48,385 nucleotides of DNA from Deltaproteobacteria bacterium (GTDB taxonomy: Bacteria; Bdellovibrionota_B; Oligoflexia; Oligoflexales; CAIYRB01): NCBI GenBank assembly GCA_016874735.1, contig VGTI01000032.1, positions 1 through 48,385 on the forward strand, written 5' to 3'. Of the stretch, positions 9,721-47,510 are shown piece after piece. Under the pieces are notes generated by a model. That model worked only from the letters and a program-made list of their open reading frames with translations, did no database searches and was not told the origin of the DNA. Numbering within the stretch: position 1 is the stretch's first letter; each line of letters starts with the position of its first letter. The translations under genes were made by a program, and so were the position numbers.

Positions 9721-11019
9721 ATGGGGGTTAGTCACCCAAATCTCAAACGCAGCAGCGTGCCATTGCTTGGTGCCCTAGCCCTGTTGTTACTGTCTGCCGC
9801 TGCCCCGGGCTCAGTGGATCAGGCCCCAGCCCCCCTACCCTACCCGGCGGGCCTCAGTATGCCGTGGCGCCTACTCAACATCGATAGTGCCGAAGCCGCG
9901 CGTACAAGGCCTGCACTTAATGCGAGCGCCAAAGCTCTAGCAGCGAGCTGGCTCACTGCACCCGACCTCGTCACCAAGTCCTTAACGCGCACCAAGCCAA
10001 CCCATAATAATCAGCGTCGCACTGACCAAATACAAGCTGGTCAACCTAAGGCGGCAGTTGGCGTCCCATCGGTGACGGTGGAGCCTAGTTGGTGCTCGAT
10101 CATGAATCGCCATCTCTTCTTTGTCACGGTAACGGATAGCAAACTAAATACGGTGCTAGGGTCAGCTCATACAGCTATCCCGCGCGGTGACTGGGCCAAG
10201 CTCCGGACTAAAGAGCAGATGACCAATTTCCTCACGAGCAAACTAGAAGACCTCGCCACCAAAGCGATCGCCAAGGCGACGATTAAGCCCAAAGTCGCAA
10301 CGGATGCGATGCATCTAGGTTTAACTCTTGGCAAAGAAGTCACACGCATCGACGAGGGTAGTAGCTGGTGCCTCAATCAACTCCTAGAGGAGCAGTTGGC
10401 ACCAGAGCACACGGTGGTGCGCTCCCTAGGCCACGACCATTTAGGACTACTCAGGGACTTGCTCGGTCAACCCGCCGCACTTAAGCGGCCAACGCGGATG
10501 TTATTGCTCGATTGGATGCACGATGGAGAGGCTACCTTCAAACCTGAAGTGCCGGTTAAGTTCACCGTGACTGGTGCGCTCCTCGAATCTGTATACGGTA
10601 AACACGTTCATGATGACTATCAGGGTAATATTCTCGGCCGTGACGGTGCAGCTGCCACAGTGGAGCTGACGGGTCCAGGCTACGATAGCCTGGTCTCACT
10701 CGTGAAAGCTGAGGAAAAAACCCTACAACTCGCCGAGTGGCCCCAAGTCGTTAAGCGCGACCGCGCCTGGGTCTATCTCGATCGCGGCAGAGCCTGGGGC
10801 TTGAAAATGAACGACAGACTCCTAGCCGAGGTCGATGGCGAAACGGTTAAGGGACACGTCGTCCACTTCTACGGACCGGAGGCCAAGCTGAAATCGCCAC
10901 GGGGATTCCCAGTCGAAGAGGGCGCAGTCCTCTTTATCCGCCTCAACCAGAAGTTGCCACGCGTAGGCACCACCTTTAGATTCGATCCAAGAACATTCCC
11001 GACCAAGTATCCGCCGTGA
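9721..11019 (+). CDS. Secreted protein of unknown function with a FlgT-like C-terminal segment
   Basis: This 432-aa protein has an N-terminal signal peptide (hydrophobic LLGALALLLLSAAAPGS) and a strong ribosome site (AGGGAGG, 4 bases before the ATG at 9721). A mixed alpha/beta region from about residue 115 contains SWCSIMNRHLFF and SSWCLNQLLEE; the two Trp-Cys pairs could form a disulfide. The C-terminal 100 residues include DRAWVYLDRGRAWGLKMNDR and EEGAVLFIRL. These resemble the small beta-barrel 'V.LN.G...GVK.GD.' repeats of FlgT and CsgG-type proteins, but this is pattern resemblance only. The next gene begins 13 bases after the stop, so the two are probably co-transcribed. Confidence 0.7.
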   Translation: MGVSHPNLKRSSVPLLGALALLLLSAAAPGSVDQAPAPLPYPAGLSMPWRLLNIDSAEAARTRPALNASAKALAASWLTAPDLVTKSLTRTKPTHNNQRRTDQIQAGQPKAAVGVPSVTVEPSWCSIMNRHLFFVTVTDSKLNTVLGSAHTAIPRGDWAKLRTKEQMTNFLTSKLEDLATKAIAKATIKPKVATDAMHLGLTLGKEVTRIDEGSSWCLNQLLEEQLAPEHTVVRSLGHDHLGLLRDLLGQPAALKRPTRMLLLDWMHDGEATFKPEVPVKFTVTGALLESVYGKHVHDDYQGNILGRDGAAATVELTGPGYDSLVSLVKAEEKTLQLAEWPQVVKRDRAWVYLDRGRAWGLKMNDRLLAEVDGETVKGHVVHFYGPEAKLKSPRGFPVEEGAVLFIRLNQKLPRVGTTFRFDPRTFPTKYPP

Positions 11020-16617: not shown

Positions 16618-16692
16618 GGCCCCATAGTTCAAGGGATAGAATAAGCCTTTCCTAAAGGTTAGATGCATGTTCGAGTCATGCTGGGGCCGCCA
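16618..16692 (+). tRNA. tRNA-Arg (anticodon CCT)
   Basis: The 75-nt sequence folds into a complete cloverleaf. The acceptor stem is GGCCCCA with TGGGGCC, the D stem GTTC with GAAT, and the anticodon stem AGCCT with AGGTT enclosing TTCCTAA. The T arm is GCATG-TTCGAGT-CATGC, the discriminator is G, and CCA is encoded. Anticodon CCT reads AGG. The last 17 bases (16676-16692) overlap antisense with the end of the pentapeptide-repeat gene. Confidence 0.95.
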
Positions 16693-17122
16693 CGCAACCC
16701 TCTAAATCAGCACCGACCGTAATAGCACCGGTGAGACGCGTGCCACGCATATCGGCACCGCGTAGATTAGCATTGGTAAAGTCGGCGAAATCGAGGAGCG
16801 AATCCTTGAAGCTTGCTCCCTCGAGATTGCAGCCACTAAAATCAGCGCCGCGTAAGTCAAATTCAGCAAACGACATGCCCGCCAGGTTAAGACCGCGGAA
16901 GCAAGCTCGCTTGCCTTGTACCGGAAGCGCTGGCGCCGAAAGTGAGTTCAGCCACTGGGCGTGGAGTTTAATGACTTCGAGAAGGTCGTCCTCGTCACCG
17001 ATCTTGACTGGCTCTGGCGGCGTTAACTGCACCATGGAGTTGATCTTGTCTGTAAACTCACTAATGTTTGGCAGTACATGATTTGGCTCTAACTGTAAGC
17101 CGTTGCCGTCGAATTTCGCCAT
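16676..17122 (-). CDS. Pentapeptide repeat protein
   Basis: From ATG 17122 the protein has 148 aa. The Shine-Dalgarno GAGGAGGAG directly upstream fixes this start; a longer frame to 17194 is not supported. The C-terminal half has about eight pentapeptide units of the A(D/N)LxX type (FRGLNLAGMSFAEFDL, RGADFSGCNLEGASF, FTNANLRGADMRGTRL), which form a right-handed beta-helix. The N-terminal half is ordinary and acidic. No function follows from the repeats alone. The final codons (VAAPA, stop) are the complement of the tRNA-Arg 3' end. Confidence 0.85.
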   Translation of the reverse strand: MAKFDGNGLQLEPNHVLPNISEFTDKINSMVQLTPPEPVKIGDEDDLLEVIKLHAQWLNSLSAPALPVQGKRACFRGLNLAGMSFAEFDLRGADFSGCNLEGASFKDSLLDFADFTNANLRGADMRGTRLTGAITVGADLEGCVAAPA

Positions 17123-17415
17123 GATCTCTCCTCCTCGGGGCAAATCTGCGATCGTCACGTTACCAATACAAGATATCACGACATGCAGGGTCAAGGCTTG
17201 AGGGCAGCTTTTGCCTACAAATCGGGCTTTTTACTGGTCGGCAAATTTTGCTTAGTTATCTTAGATCACTAGGTAAATTCGCCTTATTTATCTGTCGCGC
17301 GGACGGTGCTAGAGTTTTAGTAAGCGTTGGTTTTCAGCGCTCCTCATAGCCCTATCTCCTACCCTTCTCCCATTTAAAATTAGCACGAAACACTCAAGAA
17401 GCGGACAAGAGACCT
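17123..17415. other. Divergent intergenic region
   Basis: This 293-bp spacer lies between the pentapeptide gene (minus) and the repeat-protein gene (plus). It is AT-richer than the flanks (AAATTTTGCTTAGTTATC around 17245). No promoter pair or strong hairpin stands out. The ribosome site before 17416 is weak (AAGAGA). Confidence 0.35.
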
Positions 17416-19926
17416 ATGAACACGAAAGACATCGTTGGCCAGGAAGAAGTAGTGAACGCAAGCGCTCATGCGAACGACGAGCAAGCTCCCGAGAGCTATG
17501 CCGCACCTTCCCCCGAGGAGAGCGACGGCGTTGATAGCGTCGATCTCGCCGATCTTGAGGAACAACTAGCCGAGTCCGGTGACGACGGACAGTCACCAAA
17601 GGCCAGTGTGCCGGTCAAGGACTCGGACTTGAGCCAACGCCAACTGCAAGCGGTCGTAGCCTTCACCTCGGAGCTAAAGAGTCGCGAGGAATTTGCGCTG
17701 CAGAACTTGCGCCAAGGTCTACTAAGAACCGAACAAGAAGCCGCGACGCAACGCCTCAATGAACGTCTGCAACAAGAAGAGACAGCGAGCAAGTCGCGAC
17801 TAGCGCGCCGTATCAAGGCGGAACTTGCTGAGTCTGAGCGTCGCCAGCAACGGCAGCTACAACTTGAGCGCATGCAAGCAAAGACCAGGCATGCCGAGCG
17901 TCTGGCTGCCGAGAAAAAGCTAGCGGCTGAACGCGAGGGCGAAACCCGTAAACGCGAAGCGGACGATGCAGAAAAACGCCTCGCCTCAAATTTAGAAGCA
18001 GAGCGCCTGGCCGCCGAGCAACGCCTAGCCGAAGCGTTTAGAGCAGAAGAAACACGCGCGCAGCATCGCCTATCCTCTGCCCTGGCGGACGAGGAAAATT
18101 TAGCGCGCGAGCGCCTCGACACAGCGCTGCGTAACGAAGATGCTGCTGCCGAGCGGCGCTACCGCCAACAAATCTCTGAAGAAGGCCGCATGGCCGAGCA
18201 GCGCCGCAAGGCCCAGCTCGTCGCCGAAGCGGAAGCGAGTAAACAGCGCCTAGCTGCCGCTCTCGCTGCTGAGGAAAAAGCCGCTGCCGAGCGCCTCGCC
18301 GACGAACTCCGCGCCGAAGCCGAAGCCGCCGACGAGCGTGCCGCCTGCGACCGTGCCCGTGAACAAGCGGAAGTCGACTGCTGGCGCCAAGCCTACGAGA
18401 CTAAGGCTGACGCCGAGCGCCAAGAGCGCGCCGCCAAAGCTCAGACCGCTGAGAAAGCAAGTTACGACGAGCGCCTCGCCGCCCGCCTGGCTGACGAAGA
18501 AGCCGCTGCCGCCGAGCGCCTCACTATCGCTCTAGCGAAAGAGGCCGAAGACGCGAAGATGCGGCATGAGCAATCGCTCAAAGACGAAGAAGCCGCAGCT
18601 GTCATCCGGGCCGAAGATCGGCGCCTCGCAGAGGTCGAGCAAAGTAAACTACGTCTGGCACGCCAACTCGCGGACGAAGCCGAAGCTTCGCAACTGCGCA
18701 CCGAGCAGGCCATGGAGCAAGAAGAAGCCCAAGCCCAACTGCGCGCCAAAGAGATTGCGCTCTGCGAGAACATCATCGTTAGCATGCTCCGTGACCGCCT
18801 TATCCAGGCCGAGATCGAACCCGCAGGCAACCGCGCCAAACTGCGCGCCGCCATGGAGGCCAAAGCGGCCGAAGAGCGCCTCGAACAAGCCGTCCAGTTT
18901 GAAGAGGAAGCAGCCAGCGCCCGTCTCCGTGAACAGCTGATCAGCGAAGAACGCGCCGCCGAAGAGCGCCTCGCCGAGACTCTGATCCAAGAGGCCAAAG
19001 TCGCCGAAGCCCGCGTCAACGCCACCATTGGTCAGGAGAACGCCGAGGCTGAGCAGCGACTCCAAGAAGCGCTCCGTCATGAGGCCGAGGCCGCTCGCAT
19101 CCGTCACCATCAGGCCATGAAGCAAGAAGAGGACGCAGCACGGCAACGCGCCGTAGCGAGAGCACAGCAAGAGGTTGCTGAAGCCAACCGCCGCAAAGAA
19201 TTGCGCGGCAAGCAGGAAGCCATCGCTGCCAAACACCGCCTCGAAGACTCGCTTGCTCGCGAGGAAATGGAGGCGAAGCGACGCCAAGCAGAACTCGAGG
19301 CTATCGAACAGGCCGACATGCTGAAGCTCGAGCAAGAGACCTCCTCTGCCGAAGCCTTTGCTGCCGAAATGCGTAAAGTCAAACGCCTCGAGGCCGAGCA
19401 GAAAATCATCGCTGAGTACGAGCAGCGTCGTCAGACCCTACTCAAAAAACGCGAGCAGCAAGCCCTTGCAGCTGTAGCCGACACCAAGCCGGCCAAGATG
19501 CCAGACATCGGCACTGGTAACTCATTTGGCGACTTGTCGCTCCGTCCCGAGCCAAAATTCTTCGACACGCCAGACATCACTCCCCGGCCCCAGCCTCAAG
19601 TCGTAGCGCGTTCTGTGGCAGTCCCACACGCCGCTTCTATCTCTAAGGCCGCAGCCGAAGGCTTCGCCTCTGGCGGCGAGCTGGCTAGACTGAAAGCCTT
19701 TACCGCCGATGACATCCAGCGGCAGCTATCGCGCTACACTCCTGCCGAGACACTCAGTATCCTCACCCGCTGTACAGTCCCGGCACGTCAGTATCTACTC
19801 GATCACATCGCCCAACCGATGCACTCAGCTATGGTTTATGCGCTTGAGCAAAATGCTGGCGACCCGAGTCCAGGCGTGAACTCCGGTGTTGACGACTTTA
19901 TCCTCGGCCTTCAGACCGGCGGCTGA
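17416..19926 (+). CDS. Large pentadecad (15-residue) repeat protein, Ala/Glu/Arg-rich helix
   Basis: The protein has 836 aa and no signal peptide or membrane segment. Residues 1-100 are acidic and low in complexity. From Leu103 to about residue 672 the sequence divides without insertion or gap into 38 units of exactly 15 residues. The consensus is L-x-x-E-x-x-x-A-x-x-R-L-x-x-x. By my reading, Glu at position 4 occurs in 37 of 38 units, Ala/Ser at position 8 in 32, and Arg at position 11 in 34. This predicts one continuous helix, either a right-handed pentadecad coiled coil (15/4 periodicity) or a stable single helix. A Pro-rich linker (about 695-725) leads to a C-terminal domain of about 100 residues (LARLKAFTADDIQRQLSRYT...LDHIAQPMHSAMVYAL). 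The function is unknown; a structural, ruler or filament role is plausible. Confidence 0.85.
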   Translation: MNTKDIVGQEEVVNASAHANDEQAPESYAAPSPEESDGVDSVDLADLEEQLAESGDDGQSPKASVPVKDSDLSQRQLQAVVAFTSELKSREEFALQNLRQGLLRTEQEAATQRLNERLQQEETASKSRLARRIKAELAESERRQQRQLQLERMQAKTRHAERLAAEKKLAAEREGETRKREADDAEKRLASNLEAERLAAEQRLAEAFRAEETRAQHRLSSALADEENLARERLDTALRNEDAAAERRYRQQISEEGRMAEQRRKAQLVAEAEASKQRLAAALAAEEKAAAERLADELRAEAEAADERAACDRAREQAEVDCWRQAYETKADAERQERAAKAQTAEKASYDERLAARLADEEAAAAERLTIALAKEAEDAKMRHEQSLKDEEAAAVIRAEDRRLAEVEQSKLRLARQLADEAEASQLRTEQAMEQEEAQAQLRAKEIALCENIIVSMLRDRLIQAEIEPAGNRAKLRAAMEAKAAEERLEQAVQFEEEAASARLREQLISEERAAEERLAETLIQEAKVAEARVNATIGQENAEAEQRLQEALRHEAEAARIRHHQAMKQEEDAARQRAVARAQQEVAEANRRKELRGKQEAIAAKHRLEDSLAREEMEAKRRQAELEAIEQADMLKLEQETSSAEAFAAEMRKVKRLEAEQKIIAEYEQRRQTLLKKREQQALAAVADTKPAKMPDIGTGNSFGDLSLRPEPKFFDTPDITPRPQPQVVARSVAVPHAASISKAAAEGFASGGELARLKAFTADDIQRQLSRYTPAETLSILTRCTVPARQYLLDHIAQPMHSAMVYALEQNAGDPSPGVNSGVDDFILGLQTGG
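17722..19431 (+). repeat. About 38 tandem coding repeats of 45 bp
   Basis: These are the DNA counterpart of the 15-residue units. The repeats are strongly diverged at DNA level (GAGCGCCT and GCCGAAG words recur), while protein positions 4, 8 and 11 stay fixed. That indicates old duplication under selection, not a recent satellite expansion. Confidence 0.8.
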
Positions 19927-20860: not shown

Positions 20861-23770
20861 TCACTCCGCCGACACTTCGATGCTTGCCGTGGCCAGTCCC
20901 GGAGCTGCGGCGGTGAGCGCTACCCTTCCCGGGTCGCCGGACTTACTGCGCAGAATGATCACAGCTTTGCCGTGAAATAGACGCACAGACCTGGCAACCA
21001 TACGGTCGGTGGAATTGGGGTCACCATTGCCCACGCCTACGATATCACCCGGTCCCGTAAGCTCAAACTGCACCATCTGCATCCCATCGGGATCGACAGT
21101 GCCAGCGCCATCTTGAGCCTCTACCGTAACGAAGCTCAGATCATCACCGTCGGCGGCGATGAGTTTACGGTCCGCCGTGAGCACGAGGCGTGTCGGTGGT
21201 GCCGCCGTCCGCACAACGGTTTCACCAAGTTTCTTCGCACCTTTGTAGGTGACCAGGCGGAGCTCTCCCGGCTCGTAAGGAACGTCATCCCAACGCAGCC
21301 GGTAAGCCCTGGTGACACCGTAGTAGGACCTATCGACGGGTTGATCATAGGCCTCGAATTCGCGAATGGATGCCCAGCTACCGTCTTTTAGGGCAAGGAA
21401 TTCGACGCGGAGATAGCGCGCCTCTGCGGTAACCGCATGAGTACTGGCGAGATCGTCGCGTTCAAAGTGACGCTTAGTGGCCAGTGTCACCCAATTCTTC
21501 CCGTCCATCGAGCCTTTGAGCAAGTATTGATAGTTTGAACTATCCTGCTCAAAGTCTATGTGAACGGTGCGCACTGCTTTCGGCTCGCCTAGATCAACCT
21601 GCCACCAGCTTTGGGCACTGCCGTCACGCGCACACCAACGGCTGCTGCTATTCGCATCGACCGCCTGTTGCGCCAAATTGCCGTGATTCATCTCCTCGCT
21701 GCTAGCGCTGCTCAGCCTCCCCTTAGCCAGATTTGGCGGCAGTTTGATAGGTGGCGCAAATTTGATCTGGCGCCCAAGGGACCTGCCATTTAAAAACAAC
21801 TCCGCAGCATCGCCATTAGTGTAGGCCATCACCGGCACGCTTTGCCCCAGGCGATCTGGCCAGTTCCAATGCGGCAGTAAATGCGTCGTATCGGCGGCCT
21901 GGTTCCAGTGGCTGCGGTAGAGATAGAACCGATCTTTGGGTAAGCCAACCAGATCGACGGCACCGAAGTAGGAGCTTCTTGCCACTTTTTCAAAGGGCGA
22001 GGGTTCGCCTATGTAATCTATGCCCGTCCAGACGAATTCACCCGCCACATAAGGATCGGCATCGCGATTGGCAAATTCCGTATCGGCAATATCCCCCCAC
22101 GAAACTGAGTTCAGGTCATACGAACTGACCACAGGCGATGCAAGAAAATCATCCTTGTACCGCGGCAATGGCAGTCGGTATTCACCCCTGGTGCTCACCG
22201 CCGATGCCGATTCGCTCATCACTACCGGCATATCAGGATAGGTGGCGCGCCCTTCTAAATACTTGCGGCCGTAGTTCCAGCTCTGCACGTCCAGATAGCG
22301 ATGCATCCCAGTATTCACGGCCTGCGTCAAATGGGTAGCCATAGTGACAGGACGCGTCGGATCGTTTGCGCGTACGTAGCTGGCGATGGTGCCTACCTGC
22401 TCTGCGCTACCGCCAAAAAGATTGACTTCGATGTCCCAAATCTCGTTGCCAATACTCCAGATGACGATGCTCGGATGGTTGCGGTCACGCTTAAGGAAGT
22501 GCCGGATTTGTCTCTCGGCATAGCCATTCAAATCCACCTGGGGCAATCGGTCTGCAGTTTGGTCCCATTTATCAAAGCAATCAGCGAAGACAAGTAAACC
22601 CATAGCATCGGCCAGATCGAGCAGCTCTGGAGCCGGCGGGTTATGACTAAACCTTATGGCATTTACACCCATATCACGCATGATCTCGAGTTGCCTCTCC
22701 GCCGCACGGCGGTGAAATGCCGCGCCCAGAGGACCAAGGTCATGGTGGATATTGGCGCCCTTGAGCTGCACACGCCGCCCGTTGAGCAAGAATCCATTAT
22801 CTTTTGTAAATTCGAAGGCACGCACGCCAAATACGGTATAGTAACGGTCGCGCACCTGACCATTTACCTCTACTTGCGTCTCCGCCGCGTAAAGATGCGG
22901 GGCGTCAATGTCCCAAAGCTGAGGCCTCACGATCGTCAGATTCTGCACGACATGAGCCGCAGCCAGACGCGGCACATGGGTGTCGGTGACTTTGGTAGCA
23001 ACCACCCTGCGGGTGCCATCTTTGGTCAAGATTGTGGTGCGCACGGTGACATGGACGGGCTCAGTCAATTCGTTACCAATCGTCGTCGCGATGTTGACGG
23101 ATGCCTCAGCCTCACTAACGCGCGGCGTCGTGACGACAGTCCCCCAGTGGGCAACGTGCACAGGGTCGGCGATGGTCAGGACAACTTTACGGTAGATGCC
23201 AGCACCCGGATACCAGCGCGAGGCATGCTTACGTGTATCGACCTGAACCGCAATGACGTTGTCCTCGTCGAACTTCAGGTATGGCGTGGCATCGACACGA
23301 AAGGAGTTGTAACCATAGTCCCATTCGCCGGCGAGTTGGCCATTGATGTAAACCTTGGGAAAAGCCATAACGCCATCAAAATCGAGCCAAAAGCGCCGGC
23401 CCTCGTCGCTACGCTCTGGGGTGAAGTGATAACGGTACCAGCCCTCGCCACGCCAATTAAACTTGGTGTTACTGTCGCCGCTAGGGTCATGGTCCTGCTC
23501 GATGGCCCAGTCGTGAGGCACCCTAACCTCCCACCATCCGCTATCGTCAAGCTCGGGTAAGGCGCCACGATCTTCAGGACCAAGCCTGAAACGCCAGCCC
23601 TCCGCCAGCCTGTGGACGCGCCGGGGCGTTTGCTGACCTGGCACGTCCAGGTGATCAGCCGCTATGGGCACAGCCCGCACCGTGGCTTCACTTTGGGGCG
23701 CATAGGCCATTCCGAGGAAAATCACAAAAATCATCCGACTGCAGCTTGGTCGTAGTGACTTAGCCATCAT
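20861..23770 (-). CDS. Secreted glycoside hydrolase family 2 protein (beta-galactosidase type) with inserted F5/8C (discoidin) domain
   Basis: This 969-aa protein has a signal peptide (IFVIFLGMAYAPQSEA). In order it shows a GH2 sugar-binding domain (WEVRVPHDWAIEQ, GVMAFPKVYINGQ, about 55-205), an immunoglobulin-like domain, and a TIM barrel from about 325 (GRRVQLKGANIHHDLG). The acid/base Glu443 lies in WSIGNEIW and the probable nucleophile Glu520 in VVMSES. A DUF4982-like region (TNGDAAELFLNGRSLG) is split by a discoidin-type domain (about 690-795; WWQVDLGEPKAVRTVHI). A C-terminal beta domain includes GDIVGVGNGDPNSTD. It probably cleaves beta-galactosides of a complex polysaccharide outside or in the periplasm. 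The ATG has GAGGAGG 8 bases upstream. Confidence 0.88.
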   Translation of the reverse strand: MMAKSLRPSCSRMIFVIFLGMAYAPQSEATVRAVPIAADHLDVPGQQTPRRVHRLAEGWRFRLGPEDRGALPELDDSGWWEVRVPHDWAIEQDHDPSGDSNTKFNWRGEGWYRYHFTPERSDEGRRFWLDFDGVMAFPKVYINGQLAGEWDYGYNSFRVDATPYLKFDEDNVIAVQVDTRKHASRWYPGAGIYRKVVLTIADPVHVAHWGTVVTTPRVSEAEASVNIATTIGNELTEPVHVTVRTTILTKDGTRRVVATKVTDTHVPRLAAAHVVQNLTIVRPQLWDIDAPHLYAAETQVEVNGQVRDRYYTVFGVRAFEFTKDNGFLLNGRRVQLKGANIHHDLGPLGAAFHRRAAERQLEIMRDMGVNAIRFSHNPPAPELLDLADAMGLLVFADCFDKWDQTADRLPQVDLNGYAERQIRHFLKRDRNHPSIVIWSIGNEIWDIEVNLFGGSAEQVGTIASYVRANDPTRPVTMATHLTQAVNTGMHRYLDVQSWNYGRKYLEGRATYPDMPVVMSESASAVSTRGEYRLPLPRYKDDFLASPVVSSYDLNSVSWGDIADTEFANRDADPYVAGEFVWTGIDYIGEPSPFEKVARSSYFGAVDLVGLPKDRFYLYRSHWNQAADTTHLLPHWNWPDRLGQSVPVMAYTNGDAAELFLNGRSLGRQIKFAPPIKLPPNLAKGRLSSASSEEMNHGNLAQQAVDANSSSRWCARDGSAQSWWQVDLGEPKAVRTVHIDFEQDSSNYQYLLKGSMDGKNWVTLATKRHFERDDLASTHAVTAEARYLRVEFLALKDGSWASIREFEAYDQPVDRSYYGVTRAYRLRWDDVPYEPGELRLVTYKGAKKLGETVVRTAAPPTRLVLTADRKLIAADGDDLSFVTVEAQDGAGTVDPDGMQMVQFELTGPGDIVGVGNGDPNSTDRMVARSVRLFHGKAVIILRSKSGDPGRVALTAAAPGLATASIEVSAE

Positions 23771-32120: not shown

Positions 32121-32717
32121 ATGTCTTTCGACCAGCCTATCGATGCCGTTCGTAACCGTAAGAATCTGAAACTATTCATTGTAATCGATGATAGCTTGGA
32201 TTTCCGCTACAAGGTCATCAACCCCAGCGGCGAGGTGTTGATCCTGCCCGACCTCCTCTTTGAGGACGATCCGATCATCGTAGCACCAGAGGATGCGAGC
32301 ACCGAGTTTTCGCCTGAGCAATTGAGCGCCTATAGCGAGCACTTGGTTAAGGCTGCGGCAGCTGCCGCGGCAGCTAAGCTCGCAGCATCACGCCCAGAGC
32401 CACCACGCCGTATTGTGGCCGAGCCTGCACCTCGGCCCAAGACCCGCCGTCAGCAAAGCACTCCGATCCAGACTCGTCGTGGACTAGCTGCCTCGTGGAG
32501 CGCTCCGCGCCTGACTTTCTACAAACACAAGATCGAGCCCCTACACCCGAAGCAATCGTTCAAGATCACTGTCGAGGGGACCGGCGACTTCGAGATCACC
32601 AAGGAAGACTTCGTAGCTCATTTCAACGACGTCATGATGTCACCGTCATACCGGGCTGATGGGCTGTTTACATACCCCCAGATTCCAGACAAAGCGCTTC
32701 GTTACCGCAAGGCCTAA
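32121..32717 (+). CDS. Hypothetical protein, 198 aa
   Basis: I do not recognise a family. The N-terminal 60 residues look like a small beta domain (NLKLFIVIDDSLDFRYKVIN, GEVLILPDLLFEDDPI). A poly-alanine stretch and a basic Pro/Arg linker (about 75-125) lead to a C-terminal domain with ITVEGTGDFEITKEDFVAHF. No signal peptide is present. It ends 6 bases before greB, so they are probably co-transcribed. Confidence 0.65.
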   Translation: MSFDQPIDAVRNRKNLKLFIVIDDSLDFRYKVINPSGEVLILPDLLFEDDPIIVAPEDASTEFSPEQLSAYSEHLVKAAAAAAAAKLAASRPEPPRRIVAEPAPRPKTRRQQSTPIQTRRGLAASWSAPRLTFYKHKIEPLHPKQSFKITVEGTGDFEITKEDFVAHFNDVMMSPSYRADGLFTYPQIPDKALRYRKA

Positions 32718-34710: not shown

Positions 34711-34769
34711 GCTCCGTCTAATGCTTGTCCCCAACCCAACCGATATACGGTCTGGCCGGGGGTAGTCTT

Positions 34770-36458
34770 ATGACGGATGGTTTGAAAAAGATTTTAACGC
34801 GAGTCGCCGAAACACCCACCTCGACGATGATCGACCGTTATTTGGCGCTGGTTAGCGAGTTGTCAAACGAGCAGCAGAAGACCGAGCGCGTGCTAGATCT
34901 CGGCGAGGCCCTGATAGCGAAAGCGCCGACAGAAGCGCTACGCGTCGTTGGTATGGTGCACGATGCTGCACCCAAAAATGTGCGTGCCTACGCCATCCTG
35001 ATCGCTGCCTTTGAAAAGTTGGGGCGAACAGCCAAAGCCGGCGTGCTGCGTCTTGAGCGTGACAAACTACTTAAGGCGGCACCCCCCGTTGAGCCGGCAC
35101 AGGTTGCGTTGGAGCTTTCGTCCGAAACGTATCCGCTCGAGGTCACTCCGGAACCATCGCTTTTGGCACCTCCCCCAGAGGGTACTGGATCGATGGCTGA
35201 TCTGGCCTTGTCTTTAGCGGGATTGAGTGAAGCGGCCAGCGACTCCACAATGACTCTCAGTATCCCATCGTCCGCTAAAGACAGTGACGCTAGGGGCAGT
35301 TTCATTGCAATTGAACAGCCTCCAAACCTTGGCGCTGAAGCAAATAAAAATACCGTATCAACGGCCTTGGGCCTCAATAAGATCCAATCGATGGTTGACG
35401 GGCTGCTCAAGGACCGCAGCCCGAGTCGGGTCGGGTCTGCATTAAAATCAGCCAACTCCTTGCGCAATCCCCTGGCTGCCACCAAGAGCGACGACGCTCC
35501 AACGCCCCCGACGACTAAGACTGGCAGTACCCGCATCTCCCAAGCGCTGCGCCGGCGCAGTGGGCTCAAGACGCCCGACCATGTGGCGGGGGACGAGCCG
35601 TTATTATCGTCCGAGCGGACCAGTCTGGCGGTTCCCCCACTGGATCTTGAACTGATTGGGCAAGGTGAGGCAGGCGCACCAGATGGCGTCATCAGTGCGG
35701 CCAGTGAGTCGCTGGATCCAGAACGACTAGACCTTTTGACGCGTGAGGCGCAGGCCGCATTCGGCAAGGGCATAGGCCTCGAGGCTCAGGCGGCATCTGA
35801 TGCTTTCACGGAAGGTGGAGATGACGGAGAAACACCTAGTCTGCGCGACGATTCTTCCGCTTTGTCAGCTACAAATTTGAGAGACCTCACCGATATTTCG
35901 GAATTCTGGGACCCTCTGCACGCGCGGATGGCCAAGGTAGACTGGGACCAGGTATTGGGCGCGATGCATGAGCAACGGGAAAGTCACTTAGGTAACTTAG
36001 AGCAGGCTACACGCTTTCAGTTTTCGTTGCCTGCTGCAGCTATTCAAGCATTAAGTGCACAGTTTCAGTCCCAGGTTGTGACCGACCCAGCCAAAGCTCT
36101 CATCGCCATATGGGAGACGATCCAAGGGATCTGGGGCGAAAAACCAGACTCCGTAACCGTCGCCCTGCTGCAAGATCTTAACCTGACGCACGCAACGCGC
36201 GGGTTTTGGGGGCTGTACCTAGACGCTTTGCTCGCCCGTGGTTCGGGGCGCCGCGTACTGTTCGAAGTGGCCTCGGTTGTAGCCCGCGAGCGCCAACTTA
36301 GCTGGGCCAAGACCGGGTGGCAGCGGCTGCCAACCGCATGGCGTCAACTAGGTTTGCGTGGCTTTGCATGGCAAGAGGACGAGGGTGTGGACGCGCTCCT
36401 CGTCCGACTCAGACAAAGACCACGCCAAACCATGCGTTCGCTATTAGTGAGCGCTTAG
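34770..36458 (+). CDS. Hypothetical protein, 562 aa, helical N-terminus and long disordered middle
   Basis: The start at ATG 34770 has GGGGGTAG 7 bases upstream; the frame is open to 34725. Residues 1-110 are helical and TPR-like (LGEALIAKAPTEALRVVGMV). Residues about 115-390 are low in complexity, Ser/Pro/Ala-rich and probably disordered. The C-terminal 180 residues (EFWDPLHARMAKVDWDQVLG to RPRQTMRSLLVSA) form a helical domain I do not recognise. There is no signal peptide. The stop codon lies inside a hairpin shared with the convergent methyltransferase-like gene. Confidence 0.65.
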   Translation: MTDGLKKILTRVAETPTSTMIDRYLALVSELSNEQQKTERVLDLGEALIAKAPTEALRVVGMVHDAAPKNVRAYAILIAAFEKLGRTAKAGVLRLERDKLLKAAPPVEPAQVALELSSETYPLEVTPEPSLLAPPPEGTGSMADLALSLAGLSEAASDSTMTLSIPSSAKDSDARGSFIAIEQPPNLGAEANKNTVSTALGLNKIQSMVDGLLKDRSPSRVGSALKSANSLRNPLAATKSDDAPTPPTTKTGSTRISQALRRRSGLKTPDHVAGDEPLLSSERTSLAVPPLDLELIGQGEAGAPDGVISAASESLDPERLDLLTREAQAAFGKGIGLEAQAASDAFTEGGDDGETPSLRDDSSALSATNLRDLTDISEFWDPLHARMAKVDWDQVLGAMHEQRESHLGNLEQATRFQFSLPAAAIQALSAQFQSQVVTDPAKALIAIWETIQGIWGEKPDSVTVALLQDLNLTHATRGFWGLYLDALLARGSGRRVLFEVASVVARERQLSWAKTGWQRLPTAWRQLGLRGFAWQEDEGVDALLVRLRQRPRQTMRSLLVSA

Positions 36459-39711: not shown

Positions 39712-40554
39712 ATGGCGCCAATTCATGCAATTCAGTTAACCCCGATGATCACTCGTGCTCTTGAAGAGGACTGGGGTTTCGGCGATTGGACCACGGACAT
39801 CTGCGTGGCAGCAACAACACAGGCCAAGGCCCGCATCATCGCCAAGGAACCCACCGTGGTGGCTGGCGTCGAAGTGGCCGCGGCGGTCTTTAACCTCGTC
39901 GATCCAAGTCTTAAGGTCACGCTGCGGGCGCAAAATGGTGACCAGCTAAACCGCGGCGATTTAATCATCGAGATCTCAGGTGCAGCTAGGTCGCTCCTCA
40001 AGGCGGAGCGCGTTGCACTTAACTTTCTCGGCCGCATGTGCGGCATTGCGACGCTGACGCGAGAATTTGTGAAACAACTTGCCGGCACTAAAGCGCAGCT
40101 TTTAGACACGCGCAAGACGACTCCAGGCATGCGCCTCCTCGAAAAGTCCGCCACGGTCATTGGCGGCGCGCGCAATCACCGTATGTGCCTCACCGATGGT
40201 GTCATCGTGAAGGAGAATCACATTCGCGCAGCTGGCGGCATCAGCGCTGCCGTGAGTCGTCTACTTGAAAGTTTGCCACCAACACTCAAAATTGAGGTCG
40301 AGACCACTAACTTGAGCGAGGTACAGGAGGCTCTTGATGCCGGTGCTGACCTCATCATGCTCGACAATATGTCAGTCGCCGAGATGGCTCTGGCGGTGCG
40401 CACGGTGCGTGGCCGTGCGCTACTCGAGGCCTCGGGCAATGTCAGATTGGATACCGTCCGCGAGATCGCTCAGACCGGCGTTAACTTCATTTCGACTGGT
40501 GCCATCATCCACTCCGCACGTTGGTCTGACCTAAGCTTATTATTTGACGTGTGA
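39712..40554 (+). CDS. nadC: Nicotinate-nucleotide pyrophosphorylase (quinolinate phosphoribosyltransferase)
   Basis: This 280-aa enzyme starts at ATG 39712 with GGAGGATGG upstream. An open frame reaches back to 39658 but is unsupported. Motifs are FGDWTTDICV, AERVALNFLGRMCGIAT, LLDTRKTTPGMRLLEKSA, GGARNHRMCLTDGVIVKENH and ISTGAIIHSA. They match NadC, which converts quinolinate and PRPP into nicotinate mononucleotide for NAD synthesis. The birA-coaX fusion gene starts 31 bases after its stop. Confidence 0.95.
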   Translation: MAPIHAIQLTPMITRALEEDWGFGDWTTDICVAATTQAKARIIAKEPTVVAGVEVAAAVFNLVDPSLKVTLRAQNGDQLNRGDLIIEISGAARSLLKAERVALNFLGRMCGIATLTREFVKQLAGTKAQLLDTRKTTPGMRLLEKSATVIGGARNHRMCLTDGVIVKENHIRAAGGISAAVSRLLESLPPTLKIEVETTNLSEVQEALDAGADLIMLDNMSVAEMALAVRTVRGRALLEASGNVRLDTVREIAQTGVNFISTGAIIHSARWSDLSLLFDV

Positions 40555-40585
40555 CAGCCACCGGCGGTGTGGCAGAGGTTCCCAC

Positions 40586-42163
40586 TTGAGTAAGCCAGCC
40601 GTAACGGTCCACCATCTGAAGACGGTCGATTCCACGTCGCGCCATGCGGCTGCAATGCTGCGCGGTGATGCAGCGGGCGCCACGCATCAGGCCCCGTTCA
40701 TGATTTGGGCCGACGAGCAGACGGCCGGCCGCGGGCGTCTTGGCCATGAGTGGCTCAGTCCGCGCGGTAATCTCTATTGCACGCTGGTTTTGCCACCGCC
40801 GGAAGCCGCTCCGGAGCAACATGGACTGCTGCCGCTCAAGGCTGGTGTCATTACCGCTCGTTTTATCGAGCGAGAGTTTGGCCTCCGCCTCACTCTCAAG
40901 TGGCCAAATGATATTTTGTTTGGCGGCAATAAACTCGGCGGTATTTTGGTCGAGACCAGTCTAAATGGATCTAAGTTTGGTGAATTATTGATCGGCATTG
41001 GCCTCAATGTGAATCATGCTCCCGATTTAAGTGACGGCGATTACCGGGCCGTCGCGCTACATACGCTCCTAGGCCACAGCGTCGACTTAGCTGAGTTGGC
41101 GCGGAAATTTTCTGAGGCTTTTGTCACGCTGTGGGCCGCGCTGCCACTTGATCGTGTGATCAGCGCCTACAACGAATACGCGCTGACACCGGACGAATTG
41201 TTCTATCGCGACTTGAACGGTGAGCGACACTATGCCCGCTTGGGTGTCCTGCGCGACGACGGCGCGCAACTACTACAAGACTATCAGTCACCAGATCAAC
41301 TGATTGCCCTTAGCCACGCTGATCACGGTTGGCGCTGGACGCTGCAAAGTGCCGAGGCGCGCGAGCTTGTGATTGTTGACATTGGTAACACGGCTACAAA
41401 GTTCGCCTACTATCAAGATGCACGGAGTGAATCAGCACACTGGATAGCGCCGGTGCCGCACGATGGCGGCGAGACGTCGCTCCGGCAAGCTCTGGTCCAG
41501 CTGGCTCATCGCGTCGAGGGTCAAGCAGTCCCGCTGCACGTCACGTCGGTGCGGCCCGAGCGCACCAAACTCCTCATGCAGCTGGCTTCCGCCCTCGGCT
41601 GGCCCGTCGTCGTTGTCGGCAAGAGACCGCTGCGGCGCCGCGGCGACGGCTATCTCCTAAAAGACCTAGGTATCGATAGACTCGCTGCCATTGAGGGATG
41701 GCTCGCCAGCCTCAGTGACAACGACAGGCGCCACCAAGACCACTACGGCATAGTCGTTGCCGCTGGTACCGCGACGACGGTCGACGCCGTCACTGTGCGT
41801 GGGCAGCATTTAGGCGGCCTGATCCTGCCAGGCCTCAAGCTTGCGTTGCGCAGCTTGCACGAGGCAGCAAGCCTACTGCCAGACATCAATTTAGAGCTTG
41901 AGCTTAGCGCCGACGCGCCCAGGCAAGGATTAGGACATGACACGCGCAGCGCGATGATCTGCGCCGCTATCGAGATGACCGCTGGCGCGGTGAACGAAGT
42001 GCGGCGGCGGCTAGAGCGTCAGCAACGACGCTCTGAACTCTCTGGAGGCATTGTAGTCACTGGGGGCTGGGGTCAGCAGTTGGCGACGCGACTTGGAGGC
42101 AGCTACAAACCAGAACTGATTCTAAGTGGGGCACGCGCTCTAGCTCTGGGTGGCTGGCGCTAA
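40586..42163 (+). CDS. Bifunctional biotin-protein ligase / type III pantothenate kinase (BirA-CoaX fusion)
   Basis: I choose TTG 40586, which has GAGG 7 bases upstream (525 aa); the frame is open to 40544. The first 250 residues are a biotin-protein ligase catalytic domain: DSTSRHAAAM, ADEQTAGRGRLGHEW, LTLKWPNDILFGGNKLGGIL and IGIGLNVNH. There is no N-terminal helix-turn-helix, so it is not a repressor. From about residue 278 it is a type III pantothenate kinase (CoaX): ELVIVDIGNTATKFAYY, LGIDRLAAIEGWL, VVAAGTATTVDAV, LGGLILPGLKLALRSL and TRSAMICAAIEMTAG. One polypeptide thus attaches biotin and starts CoA synthesis. Such fusions are known (for example in Neisseria) but uncommon. Confidence 0.93.
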   Translation: MSKPAVTVHHLKTVDSTSRHAAAMLRGDAAGATHQAPFMIWADEQTAGRGRLGHEWLSPRGNLYCTLVLPPPEAAPEQHGLLPLKAGVITARFIEREFGLRLTLKWPNDILFGGNKLGGILVETSLNGSKFGELLIGIGLNVNHAPDLSDGDYRAVALHTLLGHSVDLAELARKFSEAFVTLWAALPLDRVISAYNEYALTPDELFYRDLNGERHYARLGVLRDDGAQLLQDYQSPDQLIALSHADHGWRWTLQSAEARELVIVDIGNTATKFAYYQDARSESAHWIAPVPHDGGETSLRQALVQLAHRVEGQAVPLHVTSVRPERTKLLMQLASALGWPVVVVGKRPLRRRGDGYLLKDLGIDRLAAIEGWLASLSDNDRRHQDHYGIVVAAGTATTVDAVTVRGQHLGGLILPGLKLALRSLHEAASLLPDINLELELSADAPRQGLGHDTRSAMICAAIEMTAGAVNEVRRRLERQQRRSELSGGIVVTGGWGQQLATRLGGSYKPELILSGARALALGGWR

Positions 42164-46463: not shown

Positions 46464-46765
46464 TTTACATAGCGGTCTTAATCGGCATCTTGCTCCTAGC
46501 TGTGCTCATGGCGCCTTTTTGGTTCGGCCCGGGAGGCCTACTGCAAGCTGGCTCTTCCATCAACTCCCCGAGCGAACTGCAAGCCCTTAAGGACGCCTTG
46601 CTCAAGCGCTATGTTGAGGACGAGCGGGCCTTCAAGGCCGGCCACCTATCGGCCAATTCCTGGGAGCAGCGCCAGAGCTTTCTCACCAATCGTTATATCG
46701 ATGCTGCGCGACGCCTAGACTTTTTGCAGCATACCGAGTCAAGGCCAAGTCGAGGTGCCCAGTGA
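46460..46765 (+). CDS. Short CcmI-like membrane protein
   Basis: This 101-aa protein has an N-terminal membrane helix (IYIAVLIGILLLAVLMAPFWF) and a helical soluble part (LQALKDALLKRYVEDERAFK, SWEQRQSFLTNRYIDAARRL). It matches the N-terminal portion of CcmI, without the TPR domain, and sits directly after ccmH with start and stop overlapping (ATGA, 46460-46463). It probably helps the CcmF-CcmH heme lyase. The next gene overlaps its stop too. Confidence 0.75.
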   Translation: MIYIAVLIGILLLAVLMAPFWFGPGGLLQAGSSINSPSELQALKDALLKRYVEDERAFKAGHLSANSWEQRQSFLTNRYIDAARRLDFLQHTESRPSRGAQ

Positions 46766-47454
46766 GTAGTTTGAGAGGAATGCTACAGTCAATAGTGGTG
46801 CTCGGTAGTCTAGTCGCAAGTGCCCCCTGCGCCCAAGCCGAGGTCTATGTCACGCCTAAACATCTTTTGATTTTGCGTGGCGCTCTCGATACGCTTTACG
46901 GCAGTTATATCTTCGCCCTGCAAAATACGGGCGAAGTCGCCGAGAATTACAAGACACCCGTGGCACTCCCCAAGGAAAAGGACGACTGGGCGACGCAGGA
47001 AGGGCTTGAGCCCAGCGAAGTGTCGCTCTCGCCTACGGGCAGCCTGGTCGTCGAGAAGAGCGTGCAACCAGGCGTCAACCTGCTCGGCATCGATTTCAAA
47101 GTCCCGGCAAGTTTCGGCCACACAACACTCACTTTTAAGCCTGAAGTCGCGATCGAGAGCATGATCGTCCTCGTGCCACGTGGTAGCTCGGTCAGCATTG
47201 AGTCGGGACGTTTTGCACCGGCTGATAGCAGTCAGGCGCCGGATCCGCAGTACGTGCCTTGGCACAGTGCGGGGCCTCTAGCAGCTGGCGAAGAGATCAA
47301 GATCGACGTCTACGGCCTCCCCGAGGGCCGGGCACGGCTTTGGATCGTCGGCGGTGGCGTCGCTGCCCTACTCCTCGCCTTAGCTGGCGTGGTCGCCTGG
47401 CGGACGCGACCTAAGATCACTAGCGACGGCGCTCAGTCAATGCTAATTGGTTAG
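46762..47454 (+). CDS. Exported membrane protein of the ccm cluster, unknown role
   Basis: This 230-aa protein starts at GTG 46762, overlapping the previous stop (GTGA). The signal peptide is VVLGSLVASAPCAQA. The periplasmic part is all-beta (VYVTPKHLLILRGALDTLYG, LGIDFKVPASFGHTTLTFKP). A C-terminal membrane helix (LWIVGGGVAALLLALAGVVAW) leaves a short cytoplasmic tail. Translational coupling ties it to the cytochrome c maturation genes. It may be an accessory component; I do not recognise a named family. Confidence 0.72.
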   Translation: MSSLRGMLQSIVVLGSLVASAPCAQAEVYVTPKHLLILRGALDTLYGSYIFALQNTGEVAENYKTPVALPKEKDDWATQEGLEPSEVSLSPTGSLVVEKSVQPGVNLLGIDFKVPASFGHTTLTFKPEVAIESMIVLVPRGSSVSIESGRFAPADSSQAPDPQYVPWHSAGPLAAGEEIKIDVYGLPEGRARLWIVGGGVAALLLALAGVVAWRTRPKITSDGAQSMLIG

Positions 47455-47510
47455 GGACTTTTAGTTAGGGAATTTTGGTTAGTGACGGACCGTGTCGGAG
47501 CCGATCCTGC

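Follow-up and report, generated by a model that had tools for sequence, protein, structure and literature searches.

What kind of structure is built by a bacterial protein whose chain repeats a single 15-residue pattern over hundreds of residues? The question is raised by one gene of the window, as we call the whole 48,385-nucleotide stretch of Deltaproteobacteria bacterium DNA analysed here, for which an earlier note had proposed a right-handed coiled coil with a regular salt-bridge ladder between chains, serving as a cytoskeletal filament, ruler or scaffold. The parts of the gene and of its product, hereafter the rod protein, are collected in Table 1.

Table 1. Parts of the rod gene and their positions in the window
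Feature	Position	Strand	Basis and remarks
Whole rod gene	17416..19926	+	ORF call; 836-aa repeat-rod protein; orthologues at 68-71% (G002, G005) and 26% (G006) identity
Residues 1-70, acidic N-terminal tail, net charge -15	17416..17625	+	pLDDT 32-40
First rod segment, repeat units 1 to ~25 (residues 88-390, on to 461)	17677..18585	+	Register; AlphaFold2 helix 71-461
Residues 462-481, predicted break or hinge with Pro469	18799..18858	+	pLDDT 41-44
Second rod segment, residues 482-686, repeats to 672	18859..19473	+	AlphaFold2 helix 482-686; register
Residues 687-752, disordered linker	19474..19671	+	pLDDT 31-37
Residues 754-836, small six-helix C-terminal domain	19675..19923	+	AlphaFold2 (helical domain at 754-834 in the whole chain); Foldseek; FliG_C profile match

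The repeat itself holds as first described. Residues 103-672 divide into 38 consecutive gapless 15-residue units, and one more unit with Glu91 and Arg98 occupies residues 88-102, the full register being 39 gapless units over residues 88-672 (585 residues). The reported counts are exact, with Glu at position 4 in 37 of the 38 units, Arg at position 11 in 34, and Ala (27) or Ser (5) at position 8 in 32; no column was fuller than 21 of 38 in any of 5000 shuffles, against the 37 of 38 observed. Automatic detection also leaves the period unbroken, since self-similarity peaks only at lags of 15, 30, 45 and 60 residues (z 11.2, 12.1, 10.4 and 11.0). The unit consensus reads hydrophobic1-x-x-Glu4-x-x-x-Ala/Ser8-x-x-Arg11-hydrophobic12-x-x-x, and the charge is concentrated at two places, averaging -0.97 at position 4 and +0.89 at position 11 and not exceeding about 0.25 at any other. 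The underlying DNA is well diverged, as had been claimed: Tandem Repeats Finder detects no DNA repeat within the gene, and mean identity between units is 28% for protein and 41% for DNA.

Fourier analysis of the large hydrophobic residues (I, L, M, V and F) places power of 9.3 at a period of 3.75 residues in the window protein, 10.3 in its G002 orthologue and 25.7 in that of G006, compared with 0.2-1.5 at 3.5 and 0.2-0.8 at 3.667 residues in the same three proteins. The 15/4 periodicity is thus strict, without heptads or hendecads. The strongest single hydrophobic harmonic lies at 5.0 residues (15/3) and is a by-product of the unit pattern. Pentadecads are a general class of coiled coil, with hydrophobic residues mainly at positions a, d, h and l (PMC9858780), and of their marks the 15-residue register with its 3.75-residue hydrophobic period is present here. 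The rod protein works like a pentadecad coiled-coil rod, and it falls outside each of the named families for which membership was tested: searches against Pfam, NCBIfam and PHROGs returned nothing credible (no Pfam family at E 0.001), nor did PDB sequence searches with the whole protein and a repeat profile.

For a functional register, the sister-genus genome G006 provides the strongest evidence. Its homologue carries 63 gapless units over residues 67-1011 (945 residues), self-similarity at lags in multiples of 15 giving z 10.6-14.3, and keeps Glu4 in 55 of 63 units, Arg11 in 48, Ala/Ser8 in 41 and Ile, Leu or Val at position 12 in 41. Alanine content is much lower there than in the window protein, and the position-wise profiles of the two proteins correlate at r 0.93 for charge and 0.92 for hydrophobicity despite 26% identity. 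Register is therefore conserved across genera, and unit number is not. Within the genus, unit number and order are fixed, with no indel across 581 aligned codons. When the window protein is compared with that of G002, 35 of the 38 units have their best match in the unit of the same number, and recent duplication of units was rejected on this account. Between these two proteins Arg11 is conserved at 100%, Glu4 at 97%, Ala8 at 95% and position 12 at 85%, the remaining positions at 58-79%. Between species dN is 0.19 and dS saturated, and for G002 versus G005 dN/dS is ~0.08; such strong purifying selection, keeping the pattern while synonymous sites are saturated, bears out the proposal that the periodicity is under selection.

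In all, the family comprises four proteins, from three of the six genomes of the genus and one genome of the sister genus: besides the window protein, those of G002 (883 aa, 71% identity), G005 (875 aa, 68%) and G006 (1239 aa). A profile of four repeat units and one of the C-terminal domain, the latter search having been proposed in the earlier note, each recover these four alone among 58 genomes of the class, and at a looser threshold the C-terminal profile adds one doubtful match in G015 (E 0.003). Among the families sampled, the rod is confined to one bacterial family. A wider scan of genome collections used a single-sequence query that reaches close relatives only, and by that scan absence elsewhere in bacteria is unproven; the viral contigs and plasmids searched contain no rod protein. 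The gene was not found in three of the six genus genomes, G001, G003 and G004, whose assemblies are incomplete, and on this count it is not essential. Loss or patchy presence within the genus is likely.

The repeat region is predicted to be helical. AlphaFold2, run on single chains with an alignment of four sequences whose low depth limits the models, returns the succession of disordered tail, two long helices, disordered linker and C-terminal domain given in Table 1; the length of the N-terminal tail differs among orthologues. A rod of ~85 nm had been envisaged, and of this the long helix agrees with the models while its continuity does not, given the break at residues 462-481. Pro469, the sole proline of the repeat region, has an equivalent in G002 and G005 and none in G006, and the 15-residue register continues straight through the predicted hinge. 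The models thus indicate that the rod probably consists of two segments, which at 0.15 nm per residue would measure about 58 and 31 nm, and not of a single continuous helix of 85 nm.

AlphaFold2 models a lone helix, and one may argue that the rod protein is just that: a stable single α-helix that works as a monomer, holding the acidic head and the C-terminal domain apart with nothing packed against its side. The composition suits this idea, being rich in Glu, Arg, Ala and Lys with almost no Gly or Pro, as does the depletion of like charges at i+3, i+4 and i+7 (z -2.0 to -6.7). However, single α-helices usually show a charge period of 6-9 residues, and here charge periodicity peaks at 15, 5 and 3. 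Nor are Glu-to-Lys/Arg pairs at i to i+4 enriched in the window protein (z -0.5), and in G006 they are so only mildly; the reverse order gives z 2.8 in the window protein. A solitary helix gives no reason for one register over 63 units or for the kept Ala/Ser8. We consider a solitary spacer unlikely. An amphipathic helix lying on the surface of a membrane or lipid body would also be repetitive with a fixed polar/apolar pattern, but only 2 of the 15 positions regularly carry large hydrophobic residues and the others are charged or Ala, a poor face for lipid that makes this arrangement extremely improbable.

If the helices have partners, how do they pack? With a turn of 96 degrees per residue, the conserved positions 1, 12, 8, 4, 15 and 11 all fall on one face of the helix. 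The model implied in the earlier note is an in-register parallel right-handed coiled coil, a trimer or tetramer like VASP or the YadA stalk, and the 15/4 hydrophobic period speaks for it, as do positions 1, 8 and 12, which correspond to a, h and l of the canonical frame (PMC9858780). In that frame a and l are rich in Leu and Ile, but h is Ala/Ser and d is an almost invariant Glu; the alternative core of positions 5, 8, 12 and 1 has a polar residue at position 5. Moreover, Crick-type models of two, three and four chains at three core phases, assuming a right-handed supercoil and reduced side chains, bring Glu4 within 3.6-9.3 Å of Glu4' in in-register parallel bundles and leave Glu4 and Arg11' 11.5-15 Å apart, whereas antiparallel chains bring Glu4 and Arg11' down to about 5-8 Å. 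With Glu4 facing Glu4', the screened Coulomb sum is repulsive in all 18 in-register parallel cases, that is, with two, three and four chains at every core phase tried; it is favourable in all antiparallel cases, and neutral to favourable for parallel chains staggered by 5-7.5 residues. The sign of this electrostatic result is consistent across the reduced models.

For the ladder of Glu4 and Arg11, this means that one part of the original proposal survives and another has to be revised. The alternation of charges is real, with Glu followed by Lys/Arg at i, i+7 and Arg followed by Glu at i, i+8 both enriched (z 4.6-6.2). Pairing between chains fails in the modelled in-register parallel bundle and would be plausible only if the chains ran antiparallel or were staggered; that geometry belongs to a bundle or filament and not to an autotransporter-like stalk. 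Because the conserved charges repel each other in the in-register parallel arrangement, the autotransporter-like picture is doubtful, and we regard a bundle of that type as having little probability. Nor is the geometry known from autotransporter stalks alone, as the wording of the note implied: a 15-residue right-handed coil is also described for the tetramerisation domain of VASP (Kuehnel et al. 2004, cited in PMC11043620 and PMC4721544).

The explanation that we favour, tentatively and at somewhat less than even confidence, is a cytoplasmic fibrous scaffold packed through the Glu/Arg ladder and capped by a FliG/MgtE-like head, a function suggested by the features of the protein. The repeats are predicted to form two long helices, which would pack side by side with 3.75-residue periodicity and a slightly right-handed course. 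Chains would run antiparallel or be offset by roughly half a unit. Glu4 could then meet Arg11 of the adjoining chain at intervals of about 2.25 nm, and Ala/Ser8 would let the helices approach closely. Any stagger by whole units of 15 residues would fit equally well, which would suit a bundle or a striated filament. The C-terminal domain, probably of FliG/MgtE_N ARM type, may dock the rod to a partner or stack on itself, as the ARM domains of FliG and FlgY do, and the protein may serve as a fibrous spacer or scaffold that is perhaps connected to a membrane or motor complex bearing FliG. Side-by-side assembly, chain orientation, handedness, filament formation and docking are all conditional in this proposal. 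The same applies to a cytoskeletal, ruler or scaffold role, and the case for a ruler is the weaker for the change in length from one genus to the other (39 versus 63 units), although length is fixed within the genus. The protein has no signal peptide by sequence, in agreement with the earlier note, and would accordingly be placed in the cytoplasm on the evidence of its sequence. A bolder version, which we think rather unlikely, is an intermediate-filament-like fibre of natural pentadecad rods of 39-63 units, set antiparallel or at a half-unit stagger by a two-residue Glu/Arg code and bearing a FliG-like stacking head; neither its handedness nor its packing would have a described counterpart among bacterial cytoskeletons.

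The domain at the C terminus is a separate unit, as had been claimed, AlphaFold2 placing a small helical domain beyond the disordered linker. Modelled alone, it reaches pLDDT of about 84-87 across its first five helices, and the first 13 PDB matches of this model in Foldseek are all FliG (best probability 0.94, E 0.55, none individually significant). A profile built from the class's long membrane proteins with FliG_C can be aligned to the domain over 56-58 columns with no gap, in the expected FliG_C part, and scores 21.3, compared with a maximum of 21.0 in 150 column shuffles (none as good) and 16.6 for the reversed profile. In hhalign comparisons none of 100 shuffles did as well as the match to MgtE N domains, by a narrow margin (17.3 versus 17.2), the match to FlgY-like proteins, which four of 100 shuffles equalled, does not convince, and the genome's own two FliG proteins alone, too few sequences, gave no signal. 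Pfam FliG_C and MgtE_N do not match the domain of the window protein; that of G006 has a weak MgtE_N match (E 0.032) below the curated cut-off, and against PDB sequences the C-terminal profile finds weak matches to Pumilio helical repeats only. Taken together, a FliG/MgtE ARM-type fold is probable.

Two other families of the class carry FliG_C-type or MgtE_N domains. Proteins of ~740-930 aa that begin with a signal-like stretch, have a single transmembrane segment and end in a FliG_C-type domain occur across most of the class besides ordinary FliG; members are L020 (own genome, C15:45304-45621, minus strand), L083, L085-L095 and L102. FlgY-like proteins of 244-341 aa, with a membrane anchor or signal, a coiled coil and an MgtE_N domain, are encoded at L126 (own genome, C47:17940-18092) and across L121-L135, also in members of the genus without the rod.

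Could the rod protein then be an accessory of a flagellar or FliG-like membrane complex, its C-terminal domain binding a FliG, FliM or MgtE-type partner and its rod reaching into the cytoplasm? The FliG-type fold match and the profile match to the long membrane FliG_C proteins agree with such a role, the own genome encodes one membrane FliG_C protein besides two ordinary FliG proteins, and FlgY shares the plan of a long helix followed by an ARM-like domain. However, no flagellar gene lies near the rod gene in the window or in G006, and FliG_C is present in 54 of the 58 class genomes whereas the rod is present in 4; we judge a flagellar accessory to be very unlikely.

The neighbouring genes do not name a partner either. 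The rod gene is flanked by a divergent pentapeptide-repeat gene and, 77 bp downstream, by an enoyl-CoA hydratase-like gene, with a Bmp-type ABC transporter adjoining. This order is kept in G002 and G005 and not in G006, where the surrounding genes encode DNA-alkylation-repair, Rce1-like, nitronate monooxygenase and topoisomerase VI proteins. In G001 and G003 the hydratase gene follows a mechanosensitive channel gene, with no rod gene there, and in G001 and G004 the transporter has other neighbours. Since the neighbours differ in G006 they say little on function, and no operon partner can be inferred, the hydratase, pentapeptide and transporter genes being shared with G002 and G005 only.

Several features of these surroundings deserve mention in their own right. 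In G006 the genes for topoisomerase VI subunits A and B (L010, 13055-16361) stand beside the rod gene, in a bacterium. In the window, a tRNA-Arg(CCT) gene (16618-16692, plus strand) overlaps the 3' end of the pentapeptide-repeat ORF (16676-17194, minus strand), a GalB-like β-galactosidase (20861-23770, minus strand) contains an inserted F5/8 type C (galactose-binding) domain, and one ORF (40544-42163, plus strand) fuses a biotin/lipoate ligase domain to a type III pantothenate kinase domain. The ORFs at 9721-11019, 34725-36458 and 32121-32717 (plus strand; 432, 577 and 198 aa) have no Pfam match, and at 47450-47486 a 14-bp tandem repeat, GTTAGGGACTTTTA, in 2.6 copies, lies at the 3' end of ORF 46762-47454 and just past it.

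How does the rod compare with known systems? The VASP domain is short, about two units, and forms a parallel tetramer with an all-hydrophobic core, whereas the rod has 39-63 units, carries Glu and Ala/Ser at two core positions and has no VASP family match in Pfam. The YadA stalk has ten 15-residue right-handed repeats in series (PMC3539135, PMC5297931). This type of trimeric autotransporter shares repeats in series with the rod, but it is a surface-exported trimer with a β-barrel anchor, while the rod has no signal, anchor or Pfam family match, its units are four to six times as numerous, and its charges speak against in-register parallel packing in the models. FlgY, the 172-aa E-ring protein of the Campylobacter flagellar motor, has a signal peptide and a long α-helix followed by an MgtE_N/FliG ARM-like domain that dimerises and stacks (PMC11870540). 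The rod resembles it in its predicted long helix and small helical C-terminal domain, whose family is not established, and differs in its size (836-1239 aa), its pentadecad ladder, its apparently cytoplasmic location without an export signal, and the absence of adjacent flagellar genes. With the C-terminal ARM domain of FliG the rod may share its predicted fold (the top 13 PDB matches, none significant by itself), but sequence similarity is low, Pfam FliG_C does not match, and the N and M domains of FliG are absent. Cytoplasmic coiled-coil filaments, such as are proposed for the rod, are formed in bacteria by FilP/Scy and DivIVA (PMC6599971, PMC9858780), from which the rod differs in its strict pentadecad and in having no DivIVA-type or other Pfam match. 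Natural 15-residue coiled coils in the surveyed literature are short or lie within exported adhesin stalks; the rod, with one register over 585-945 residues and two fixed charged positions, offers a simple natural code with which to test how the handedness, chain orientation and stagger of a helix bundle follow from sequence. Should the rod assemble into filaments, a little-studied group of bacteria would gain a further cytoskeletal type, and rod proteins would be connected to the stacking fold of FliG and MgtE.
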